64,000 bases of DNA, taken from NCBI RefSeq assembly GCF_004360155.1, contig NZ_SAIS01000001.1:558001-622000 (forward strand). Direction: 5' to 3'. The translations under genes and the position numbers were made by a program. The first letter of the stretch is position 1; each line of letters starts with the position of its first letter. Source of the DNA: Paraglaciecola marina (GTDB taxonomy: Bacteria > Pseudomonadota > Gammaproteobacteria > Enterobacterales > Alteromonadaceae). Below are positions 4,392-34,374 of the stretch, in pieces. The notes beneath the pieces are model-generated. The model made no database searches, was not told the DNA's origin, and saw nothing but the letters and a program-made list of their open reading frames with translations.

Positions 4392-4483
4392 GGATAGCTG
4401 GCAGAGCTCGGTTTAATGCACCTGACTTGAAATCAGACGTACGGTCAAACGTACCGGGGGTTCGAATCCCTCGCTATCCGCCA
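4392..4483 (+). tRNA. tRNA-Ser (anticodon UGA)
   Basis: A class II tRNA with acceptor arms GGATAGC (4392-4398) and GCTATCC (4473-4479), discriminator G4480 and encoded CCA (4481-4483). The anticodon loop CTTGAAA gives anticodon TGA, reading UCN serine codons. The long variable arm (about 20 bases with its own stem) and the GTTCGAATCC T-loop are as expected for tRNA-Ser. It stands alone between its own predicted promoter and a terminator. Confidence 0.97.
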
Positions 4484-19942: not shown

Positions 19943-20017
19943 GCGGGAATAGCTCAGTGGTAGAGCACAACCTTGCCAAGGTTGGGGTCGCGAGTTCGAA
20001 TCTCGTTTCCCGCTCCA
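19943..20017 (+). tRNA. tRNA-Gly (anticodon GCC)
   Basis: Acceptor arms GCGGGAA (19943-19949) and TTCCCGC (20007-20013), discriminator T and encoded CCA (20015-20017). The anticodon arm CCTTGCCAAGG gives GCC, and the T-loop GTTCGAATC is normal. First tRNA of a Gly-Cys-Leu operon that matches the glyW-cysT-leuZ order of E. coli. Confidence 0.97.
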
Positions 20018-20075
20018 ATTTCTTTCATTTTGAAGGTTTTACTTAAAGTAGAAGTTTTATTTTAAGATAAGATTC

Positions 20076-20149
20076 GGCGGAATGGCAGAATGGCTATGCA
20101 GCGGATTGCAAATCCGTGGATCTCGGTTCGACTCCGGGTTCCGCCTCCA
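20076..20149 (+). tRNA. tRNA-Cys (anticodon GCA)
   Basis: Acceptor arms GGCGGAA (20076-20082) and TTCCGCC (20139-20145), discriminator T20146 and CCA (20147-20149). The anticodon loop ATTGCAAAT gives GCA. It lies 58 bases after tRNA-Gly in the same cluster. Confidence 0.97.
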
Positions 20150-20198
20150 TAAACGCTTAAGCAATACCAGCTTACTTTTTCGAGTAAGTACCCCCGAT

Positions 20199-20285
20199 GC
20201 CCGGGTGGTGAAATTGGTAGACACAAGGGATTTAAAATCCCTCGTTCGTAAGGACGTGCCGGTTCAAGTCCGGCCCCGGGCACCA
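20199..20285 (+). tRNA. tRNA-Leu (anticodon UAA)
   Basis: A class II tRNA with acceptor arms GCCCGGG (20199-20205) and CCCGGGC (20275-20281), discriminator A and CCA (20283-20285). The anticodon loop TTTAAAA gives TAA. A long variable arm with its own stem (CGTTCGTAAGGACG region) is present. It is the last tRNA of the cluster; no obvious U-tract terminator follows. Confidence 0.97.
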
Positions 20286-31556: not shown

Positions 31557-31976
31557 GTGAAAATTAACACCAAAATATACAGGGCCGTTTATGGTCTGTC
31601 TGAAAAAATTATGGCCGCGGCTGATAGAGATAATCAGAAAGAGTTTGATAGGTATTTTGCTGAGCTTAAGGCCATTTGTGTAGATAACGAGAATACCCCT
31701 ACAGATCATCCCGAGCAGTGGGAAACATTGGCAGATTTTACCGATGACCTAGCCGAGGCTGTAATCGGATATCAAAAAGCGTTAGCAAAGGCTGAGGCGA
31801 TTAATTCGAAAGATCATATGTCGTCTATTGGGTATTCAATGGCTAGGTTGCAAGTTGAGTTGGGTGATACCAGCGCGGCCATTCAAAGCCTTGAAGCTGC
31901 AAAAGTCAGCGCTAATAAAATAGAAGATAACGAGCTCAAAACCGAAATACAGCAACTGCTTGAATCATTGGGTTAA
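31557..31976 (+). CDS. Uncharacterised TPR-like helical protein
   Basis: A 139-residue acidic, helix-rich protein with no signal peptide. The pattern LAEAVIGYQKALAKAEAINS followed by DHMSSIGYSMARLQVELGDT and AAIQSLEAAKVSAN resembles two degenerate TPR repeats. I do not recognise a named family. The start is GTG at 31557 with GTAAGG upstream. It ends 86 bases before the Rho-like gene on the same strand, so a link as partner or co-regulated protein is possible. TPR-like proteins often mediate protein-protein contacts. Confidence 0.6.
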   Translation: MKINTKIYRAVYGLSEKIMAAADRDNQKEFDRYFAELKAICVDNENTPTDHPEQWETLADFTDDLAEAVIGYQKALAKAEAINSKDHMSSIGYSMARLQVELGDTSAAIQSLEAAKVSANKIEDNELKTEIQQLLESLG

Positions 31977-32062
31977 GTGTAATCTTAAGCATTACTGTCA
32001 ACTTTACCCAAACGCAACCGCTAGCCAATCATCTAACATCTCATAGGGTACACACAGGCATT

Positions 32063-33034
32063 ATGGCCAGAAAAATATTATCGTTAAACTTGAAAAGAAA
32101 AAAAGTCAGTGAGTCTACTGACAGCCAAGTTAACAAAGCTGAAGTTAAACCATCGCCTGCAAAGAAACCTGTTGAAGACTCCCAATATCGATTTTTAAAT
32201 GGCACGGCGGTTAATCCTTATGAATGTATTCAACTGGCATTAGCCTCAGATGAGCCGACTATACGGGCCATGGATATGTTCACGCCAATTGGCAAGGGGC
32301 AACGTGGCTTGATTGTTGCGCCGCCTGGGTGTGGCAAAACCACCCTGTTAAAACATATATGCCAAGCTGTAGGGGCGGGTCACCCCGAGATAAAGCTATA
32401 TGCGTTACTGATTGATGAGCGCCCAGAAGAGGTAACTGATTTTACGCGCAGTGTGCCTGCTACGGTACATGCCTCATCTACCGATGAAAGTTATGCCCAC
32501 CACTTACAAGTTGCTAATAACTTACTGAATATCGCCCGTAAAGAGGCCGGAGAGGGTCATGATGTGATGATAGTGATTGACTCATTAACCAGACTCACCC
32601 GGGTACATAATGCCAAGCAAAAAAGCAGTGGTCGTACTATGTCGGGTGGCCTAGACGCAAAAGCGATGGAAATGCCACGCAAATTATTTGGCTCAGCCAG
32701 AAAAGTAGAAGACAGCGGCTCGCTTACTATTTTAGCTACGGTACTTGCCGATACCGGTAGCCGTATGGACCAAGTAATATTTGAAGAGTTTAAAGGCACA
32801 GGCAACATGGAGGTTGTATTATCCCGCGAGGCGTCACAGCAGCGAGTTTTCCCCGCACTAGATATCGCAAAAAGCAGTACACGCCGAGAAGAGCTGCTGT
32901 TAGACCATAAAACTCTGCCCAACATAAGAGCGCTACGTAGAGGATTAACTAGCCTTAAACCTGTTGATGGAGCCAGAAAACTGGTTGAATTACTTGATAG
33001 TTATCCAACCAATACCGAGCTGTTAAACCGCTAA
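32063..33034 (+). CDS. Rho-like ATPase lacking the N-terminal RNA-binding domain
   Basis: A 323-residue paralogue of transcription termination factor Rho. From about residue 45 it aligns to E. coli Rho with a constant offset of 92: Walker A VAPPGCGKTT (Lys92 = Lys184), catalytic Glu119 (= Glu211) in LLIDERPEEV, Walker B Asp173 (= Asp265), Q-loop SSGRTMSGGLDA, R-loop DTGSRMDQV (Arg234 for Lys326), EEFKGTGNME, and the arginines Arg261 and Arg274 (= Arg353 and finger Arg366). E. coli Rho has an N-terminal helical bundle and cold-shock RNA-binding fold (residues 1-118); here residues 1-40 are only a basic, Lys-rich tail. It should still hydrolyse ATP and form rings, but lacks the primary RNA site. 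Full-length rho must be elsewhere. Function unknown. Confidence 0.92.
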   Translation: MARKILSLNLKRKKVSESTDSQVNKAEVKPSPAKKPVEDSQYRFLNGTAVNPYECIQLALASDEPTIRAMDMFTPIGKGQRGLIVAPPGCGKTTLLKHICQAVGAGHPEIKLYALLIDERPEEVTDFTRSVPATVHASSTDESYAHHLQVANNLLNIARKEAGEGHDVMIVIDSLTRLTRVHNAKQKSSGRTMSGGLDAKAMEMPRKLFGSARKVEDSGSLTILATVLADTGSRMDQVIFEEFKGTGNMEVVLSREASQQRVFPALDIAKSSTRREELLLDHKTLPNIRALRRGLTSLKPVDGARKLVELLDSYPTNTELLNR

Positions 33035-33270: not shown

Positions 33271-34374
33271 GTGCATTTATTAGAAGTAGAGTGTTTAGGT
33301 AAACCCCTTAAGTTAGAGGGTTCGATGGCGGGTTGGCAACAGCTTTTTTGGGGTGAACAGTGCGTGTCGCAAATTGATACGAGTGCCGCTACAAGTAATA
33401 ATGACGACCTAGAGGGAACACCTTTTTCCCATCAATTTACATTACAAAGCGAGCAGGGTGATATCCAGGTTGAGTTGAGTGGTGTACTTAACTGGCAGCC
33501 TTTTAAGTTGCAATTTACCTTGGTGGTAAATGACCAGCAAATAGAAGAAGGAACCCTTACCGAAAAAGACATAGAGCAAAGGCAGGTTACCCAAGGTAAA
33601 AAACAGCCAATGAAGTTTAGCTTTATTGGGATGGCGAGCTTGGGGTTAAAGCTGCTAAAAAGTGCCAAGGTGATTAAGGTGTTATTCGCTGCTGGTAGCT
33701 TAGCGGCTTATAGTTGGTTGTTTTCTATTGAGTTTGCCATTGCCCTTATCCTTTGTTTGGTGTTTCACGAATACGGACATATCAAGGCAATGAAATACTT
33801 TGGCTTAAAAACCAAAGGCATTTACCTCATCCCTTTTGTGGGTGGCTTGGCCTTAAGCGACAGCAAAATAAATACCCGTTGGCAAGATATCGTGATTTCA
33901 ATCATGGGGCCGTTTTTTGGCCTGATATTGTCTATGGCATGTTTATTGGCATATTGGATCACCGATATAGAAATACTTGCGGGCTTAGCGGTATTTAACG
34001 CCTTACTCAATTTATTCAATATGTTGCCTGTATTGCCCCTAGACGGTGGCCATGTATTAAAAAGCATCGCGTTTTCGGTCAACTCATGGGTGGGCATTAT
34101 TGCCTGTATATTGGGCGCGGTATTAGGTGTGTTTGTTAGTTACTATTTTGGTTTGGCTTTACTAGGTTTTTTGCTCGCCATAGGTAGCCTAGAGATATTT
34201 TTTGAATATAAACGCAGGCATTTAAGTGAACTGTTGCCATTAAATCGTTATGCACAGTTTGTTTCTGTAGCTTGGTACGTGGTTACAATAGGTGGCCTAA
34301 GCGCGATTATTTGGTTAGTTGGGCAAACCGGTAATGACGCCTTGTCTTTACCTTTGAAAATATTGGGTAGTTAG
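33271..34374 (+). CDS. M50-family (site-2) membrane metalloprotease
   Basis: A 367-residue protein. Residues 1-110 are a soluble beta-rich domain; the rest is membrane-embedded. The zinc motif HEYGH is at 166-170 and the third ligand is in LPVLPLDGGHVLK (Asp258). This is the signature of site-2 intramembrane proteases such as SpoIVFB. These cut substrates inside the membrane, often anti-sigma factors. The start is GTG at 33271. The gene lies 237 bases after the Rho-like gene, so a link is not clear. The N-terminal soluble domain may be a regulatory or substrate-binding part. Confidence 0.88.
   Translation: MHLLEVECLGKPLKLEGSMAGWQQLFWGEQCVSQIDTSAATSNNDDLEGTPFSHQFTLQSEQGDIQVELSGVLNWQPFKLQFTLVVNDQQIEEGTLTEKDIEQRQVTQGKKQPMKFSFIGMASLGLKLLKSAKVIKVLFAAGSLAAYSWLFSIEFAIALILCLVFHEYGHIKAMKYFGLKTKGIYLIPFVGGLALSDSKINTRWQDIVISIMGPFFGLILSMACLLAYWITDIEILAGLAVFNALLNLFNMLPVLPLDGGHVLKSIAFSVNSWVGIIACILGAVLGVFVSYYFGLALLGFLLAIGSLEIFFEYKRRHLSELLPLNRYAQFVSVAWYVVTIGGLSAIIWLVGQTGNDALSLPLKILGS

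Follow-up and report, generated by a model that had tools for sequence, protein, structure and literature searches.

The region analysed, hereafter the window, is the whole 64,000-nucleotide stretch at positions 558,001 to 622,000 of contig NZ_SAIS01000001.1 of Paraglaciecola marina. It contains a gene, here called short rho, that encodes the motor domain of the transcription termination factor Rho without the N-terminal domain that normally precedes it. The gene, its parts and its neighbours are arranged as follows.

31557-31976, + strand: TPR-like protein of 139 residues; a TPR-type match was obtained only with its Halomonadaceae homologue
32028-32062, + strand: leader of short rho, a block of about 35 nt conserved in most relatives and diverged in the window copy
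32063-33034, + strand: short rho, ATG to TAA, 323 residues; Rho motor domain, N-terminal domain absent
32063-32098, + strand: conserved N-terminal tail motif MARKILSLNLKR, with the family form M[TA][RK]KxLSLxxK[RK]
32099-32191, + strand: Lys-rich variable linker ending at the conserved Phe44, defined from alignments and of low pLDDT
32318-32344, + strand: Walker A motif APPGCGKTT, residues 86-94, with Gly89 in place of Lys181 of Rho
32609-32647, + strand: Q-loop region NAKQKSSGRTMSG, residues 183-195, with Lys187 for Pro279 and Arg191 for Lys283; the structural model is uncertain at 188-195
32750-32770, + strand: R-loop DTGSRMD, residues 230-236, placed by the alignment of 90 short sequences and 37 Rhos
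33271-34374, + strand: M50-type membrane metalloprotease, found elsewhere in relatives

The window also holds a Gly-Cys-Leu tRNA cluster at 19943-20285 and a separate tRNA-Ser at 4392-4483.

The closest NCBIfam model to the window protein is a Rho model, NF006886 (PRK09376), which it matches with 363.7 bits (cut-off 315); against TIGR00767 it scores 329 bits, below the cut-off of 509.45. Pfam matched the ATPase domain and generic P-loop families. Neither the N-terminal helical bundle (Rho_N, PF07498) nor the cold-shock RNA-binding domain (PF07497) was matched at E<=10, a search in which HMMER filtering discards many matches with an E-value higher than about 0.1, and the absence of both folds is as the original prediction for this locus had it. 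That prediction had also proposed an ungapped alignment with E. coli Rho from residue 45 at an offset of 92. The offset stands, with HMMER pairing residues 62-319 with Rho 154-411 without a gap, but the alignment does not reach back so far, as MAFFT places a three-residue gap upstream of about residue 61 and gives an offset of 92 at 263 of 314 aligned positions. An AlphaFold2 model built from 57 homologues has a mean pLDDT of 79, falling below 50 at residues 1-37 and in the Q-loop (188-195); the 50 best PDB matches to it, among the matches listed, are all Rho, over about 280 columns. A full-length Rho of 421 residues is encoded in the same genome (G000:C2:375320) and is about 49% identical to short Rho across residues 61-320, within the 45-50% identity that short Rho displays to the Rhos of the order. 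The protein is thus what had been proposed: a paralogue of Rho, encoded alongside a normal Rho, in which the ATPase domain is intact and the primary RNA-binding domain absent.

By homology, the gene is a member of a marine gammaproteobacterial family and not a one-off truncation. The 92 short rho loci read encode 87 distinct proteins, and the family spans 314-339 residues. Carriers account for 11 of 22 Paraglaciecola genomes, all 11 of which also display a separate match to full-length Rho, for 26 of 295 genomes (8 of 52 genera) in the family, and for 2 of 369 genomes, its own included, in an even sample of the class. A search of genome_contigs with two short peptides gave 429 stretches, of which 223 encoded a relative; the best 80 of the 223 were kept, and all are short forms. 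They derive from Colwellia, Shewanella benthica, Glaciecola, Paraglaciecola, Amphritea, Neptuniibacter, Marinomonas, Halomonas/Vreelandella, Marinobacter, Osedax symbionts and others. One genome (G332) contains three copies (L086, L087 and L088), two of which share flanking genes.

A concealed upstream domain, or a frameshift joining the gene to an upstream cold-shock domain, is rejected: the whole spacing to the preceding gene is 86 nt, the start motif is conserved and neither Rho_N nor PF07497 is matched. Indeed 76 of the 80 kept relatives combine the start motif M..[KR]KxL with a length of at least 300 residues; one of the other four begins MAREIL and three are apparently cut by contig ends. 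An in-frame stop lies within 8 codons upstream of the start in 73 of 90 motif-bearing sequences, the window copy being among the 17 without one.

The 90 short sequences, which represent 85 distinct proteins, were compared with 37 ordinary Rhos. The catalytic residues singled out by the original prediction, Lys92, Glu119, Asp173, Arg261 and Arg274 (E. coli Rho K184, E211, D265, R353 and R366), are the same in all 90, as are, in E. coli numbering, L208, D210, R212, S266, R269, T323 and G324; the loop glycines G287, G288 and G324 are likewise kept in 90 of 90. The arginine at the R-loop lysine (Arg234, K326 in E. coli) is present as described, but is nothing unusual, since 11 of the 37 ordinary Rhos also have Arg there; among the short sequences the position is Arg in 78, the uncharged Gln in 11 and Lys in one. 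Three changes had not been mentioned, namely Gly89 for Lys181, Lys187 for Pro279 and Arg191 for Lys283. Position 181 is Gly in every short sequence and Lys or Arg in every Rho, K283 has become Arg and T276 Ala in 90 of 90, P279 has given way to Lys or Arg in 89, V278 to Gln or Arg in 83 and Y274 to His in 92%. At a threshold of at least 85% within each set, 47 positions are fixed differently between short Rho and Rho, although the alignment is uncertain up to residue 49, a stretch that takes in seven of them. The catalytic residues have thus stayed the same, and it is the RNA-facing loop that has been rebuilt. The Q-loop of short Rho is more basic than that of Rho, as judged by residue identity rather than by the electrostatics of a ring.

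We read this combination as that of a motor adapted to engage nucleic acid in another way; the alternative is a crippled or regulatory subunit. The E. coli Rho mutants P279S/L and Y274D are defective in termination and have lost RNA function at the secondary site (PMC1950744). Since short Rho is changed at the same two positions, its motor might have lost much of its ability to hydrolyse ATP in response to RNA. Also arguing against an active motor with a loading route of its own are the 11 of 90 sequences with Gln at the R-loop lysine, and the fact that no conserved gene for a loading partner was found across 86 loci.

The N-terminal tail is conserved, followed by a variable linker and unstructured in the model, as a peptide that docks on a partner or binds nucleic acid would be. 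It may resemble basic segments of FinO and IF-2. A search for the motif through 2.1 Mb of DNA listed no protein other than short Rho, and a degenerate form of the pattern gave 10 matches in the P. marina genome against 9 in a reversed control, with none of the 9 matches inspected sitting in an open frame of more than 51 codons.

It could be argued that short rho is a decaying or artefactual truncation of rho without function. A clear remnant does exist in one relative, P. arctica (G019), and in the tree the window copy has a long terminal branch (0.42), besides a diverged leader that has largely lost the conserved block. Set against this, however, are the 87 distinct homologues, nearly all with the start motif and with motor residues intact, and a dN/dS far below 1: the value is 0.03-0.10 in 11 of 11 pairs of short rho genes, with dS above 1 in three, and 0.06 in the pair that includes the window copy, at a dS near saturation. 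These ratios point to strong purifying selection, which makes a dead subunit hard to accept as the explanation, and we regard decay as close to negligible.

In a tree constructed by a quick method, unrooted and with long branches in play, 75 short sequences and 32 Rhos are parted by a single branch (SH-aLRT 100, about 3.4 changes per column), and the phylogeny thus sets the paralogue apart from Rho. The 11 Rhos of Paraglaciecola in the tree are nearly identical to each other. Shewanella benthica copies fall among those of Colwellia, and an AU test rejected the Colwellia sequences as one clade (p 0.021, for a group chosen after the tree had been seen). For the 11 Paraglaciecola sequences a single clade was not rejected (p 0.58), the constrained tree being better than the quick free tree, and horizontal transfer inside this genus is not claimed for that reason. 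Judging from the tree and the distribution, the spread of short rho is patchy and partly horizontal.

Within Paraglaciecola the gene occupies several settings. Four loci (G001, G016, G017 and G020) have flanking sequence in common and three (G009, G012 and G015) have a common upstream gene; neither these flanks nor this upstream gene are found at the loci of the window, G004 and G010 or around the intact P. arctica copy. The P. arctica remnant (L220:2102-2232; G019:C30:5101-5231) comprises the leader and the first 35 codons with a stop soon after, and it occupies the locus of G001, G016, G017 and G020, the intact short rho being elsewhere. This is evidence of loss, from which duplication or relocation may be deduced. 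Flank searches did not find a clean empty insertion site. Where these searches compared copies from different loci, their shared DNA mostly starts 14-29 bp before the ATG and stops at or just before the stop codon.

The block before the ATG is conserved across genera, with the aligned consensus AAAcAcTTAATTcTCtAGAGcTATAAAcCgATATC from 83 loci, and short rho thus apparently carries an expression signal of its own when it moves. A -10-like TA[GT][AG]CT lies between -75 and -38 in 20 of the 83 loci, compared with a mean of 3.5 in base shuffles, although the loci are related and the 20 matches are not independent cases. No clear Shine-Dalgarno sequence was visible by eye between about -38 and -1 in these loci.

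Neighbouring genes do not display comparable constancy. The original prediction had nominated the TPR-like protein encoded 86 nt upstream as a candidate partner, a proposal that the relatives do not bear out. Over 86 short rho loci, and within the flanks fetched, this gene is near short rho only in the window and in three Halomonadaceae loci, at 1.5, 4.8 and 9.2 kb; in G009, G012 and G015, which have both genes, they are on different contigs or about 1.8 Mb apart, and by DNA-level match the TPR-like gene is present in two genomes (G002 and G006) that lack short rho. The Halomonadaceae loci with a close homologue less than 10 kb from short rho are L169, L174 and L175. The M50-type protease gene is not linked to short rho, as it is located elsewhere in relatives; G012 has two copies of it about 16 kb apart at another locus.

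No family of neighbouring genes accompanies short rho at more than 15 of the 86 loci compared, and the families that recur are from few lineages. Within four genes of short rho, a DEAD-box helicase occurs at 15 of 86 loci, 14 of the 15 being one orthologue (73-97% identical), and an RsuA-like pseudouridine synthase at 10 of 86. Most of these loci are in Oceanospirillaceae and Halomonadaceae, Glaciecola and Colwellia contributing one case each, and common descent accounts for most of the recurrence. Adjacent genes were scanned for 99 of 112 deduplicated entries, the other 13 being left out of the alignment. Pfam matched 157 families in these 99, the commonest being GGDEF (4 of 99); PADLOC matched 73 families, none in more than 2 of 99, and PHROGs 80, none in more than 4 of 99, the first 25 families being listed in each case. 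As the neighbours have no common theme, we reject the idea that short rho generally sits in a defence island or prophage.

These neighbours bear on the proposal that short Rho is an RNA-metabolism factor for cold or deep-sea life, active in ribosome assembly or RNA unwinding and not in transcription. Many of the best 80 of the 223 relatives are from Colwellia, Shewanella benthica, Paraglaciecola and DT-labelled MAGs, which we take to be mostly cold or deep-sea lineages, and the helicase and the pseudouridine synthase would suit such a function. It should be emphasized, however, that the counts for both genes come from few lineages, that the deduplicated neighbours are without a common theme and that the best-scoring 80 of 223 loci are no fair sample of habitats. 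Halomonadaceae and Marinobacter, presumably not cold specialists, carry short rho too. We consider this explanation very unlikely.

Carriage by mobile elements was also surveyed. Of 485 plasmid records with a match one exceeded 60% identity, a copy from Spartinivicinus ruber (L095:12001-12960, NZ_CP048880.1) that is 73% identical and is annotated by NCBI as plain Rho. The plasmid bears capsid, tail, terminase and holin genes and is thus a phage-plasmid, on which short rho is a lone opposite-strand gene between the holin and small genes. A HEPN-domain gene lies about 6 kb from it. The 22 records matched in a phage collection are all below 60% identity, consistent with ordinary Rho, and a scan of IMG/VR with two short peptides returned no short rho. 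On a Kitasatospora plasmid (AP028456.1, L190:961-2391) a Rho-like gene annotated as a hypothetical protein forms a long branch in the tree.

The S. ruber copy, lying beside a holin gene, and the scattered, partly horizontal distribution lend some credit to a selective terminator, whose tail would bind RNA polymerase, NusG/NusA or the ribosome and bring the motor to particular transcripts such as those of foreign genes, with a moron-like or exclusion role on phage-plasmids. This phage-like carrier is the only one found, however, and the IMG/VR scan gave none. PADLOC and PHROGs, moreover, gave no strong full-length match to the protein, their best matches being partial and P-loop-centred (mad8, 4.9e-7, residues 63-158; phrog_168, 7.3e-5), and no PADLOC family recurs in more than 2 of 99 adjacent genes. 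Such a role seems to us improbable.

The explanation we favour, at about even odds, is that short Rho is a stand-alone accessory ring motor of the Rho family with its own loading route, acting apart from Rho. Short Rho would assemble its own hexamer, nucleic acid entering the central channel would trigger ATP hydrolysis, and the ring would translocate on RNA. Because the domain that captures C-rich rut RNA is absent, loading would depend either directly on the basic tail together with the more basic Q-loop, or on a partner on which the M-T-R-K-x-L-S-L tail docks and which hands over the RNA. Such a motor would not be a general termination factor but would remodel particular RNAs or terminate selectively, on transcripts or at moments left alone by Rho.

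The same residues have also to be weighed in the light of the chief competing proposal, in which short subunits join or stack on Rho hexamers and thereby lower, redirect or time the activity of Rho, in the manner of a naturally occurring dominant-negative or adaptor subunit. The two proteins have the same fold, and K336 (89 of 90), R353 and R366 (both 90 of 90), which we take to lie at the Rho subunit interface, are kept. Full-length Rho accompanies the short form in all 11 Paraglaciecola carriers, and the altered positions are ones whose mutation stops E. coli Rho terminating, as stated in the available portion of PMC1950744. A poison subunit, however, should not need E211, D265 and K184, all of which are invariant under strong selection. 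Contacts between Rho protomers, as described in the accessible part of a study of Rho conservation (PMC11829017), also use the N-terminal domain and connector, which are missing here. The identity of about 49% to the resident Rho, when the Rhos of the genus are nearly identical to each other, is weak evidence against co-evolution. Modulation of Rho by short Rho is thus, in our estimation, doubtful.

Few bacterial motors have been studied as closely as Rho, and the loading of its ring is generally ascribed in large part to the N-terminal RNA-capture domain. A family that occurs in nature and is maintained by selection without that domain would show what a bare ring can do and how it is loaded, and whether cells tune termination with partial Rho subunits. 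In the open-access literature, to which the search was largely confined as subscription papers were mostly outside its scope, no description of a Rho paralogue lacking the N-terminal domain was found among the titles and abstract openings listed, and short Rho probably does something described nowhere in the literature searched. The main text of a comparison of piezophilic Colwellia genomes, in the part available, does not contain the whole word 'Rho' (PMC7542103). The conservation study, as far as its accessible text describes, gathered candidates by PF07497 and obtained 632 sequences of 355-857 residues (PMC11829017); proteins of 314-339 residues without this domain would escape such a census. 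The family therefore falls into a blind spot, since an NCBI model files it as 'Rho' and a census based on PF07497 skips it. Tentatively, short Rho may represent a second class of Rho-type motor that evolves independently, no longer depends on rut recognition and is re-targeted by a docking peptide; it would spread as a bare gene among marine Gammaproteobacteria and on a phage-plasmid, add an RNA-translocase activity to its host and escape censuses that search for the lost domain.

Among known systems, the export ATPases FliI/SctN and F1 beta belong to the same ATPase superfamily as short Rho but match it far worse (E of about 1e-25 or worse, compared with 1e-108). The Rho inhibitors Psu and Rof have folds unrelated to Rho. 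Their outcome would match that of short Rho if the latter modulates Rho, although they are, in the partial account available, other proteins that bind Rho from outside. A shortened Rho paralogue has also been named in NF041509, 'paralog_Rho2, transcription termination factor Rho, short form', a model of 360 positions. The window protein scores 298.4 bits against it, under the cut-off of 628, and covers only model positions 62-358, whereas ordinary Rhos align from position 3 or so; to judge from these coordinates, most of the RNA-binding domain is probably retained in the model, unlike in short Rho. None of 274 sampled gammaproteobacterial genomes contained a member above the cut-off. With Rho itself, short Rho has in common the RecA/F1-type ATPase domain, Walker A and B motifs, catalytic Glu, arginine finger and R-loop, although K326 of that loop is Gln in 11 of 90 sequences; it differs in being without the N-terminal helical bundle and cold-shock RNA-binding domain, in the substitutions K181G, P279K/R and K283R, and in forming a separate clade on a long stem.
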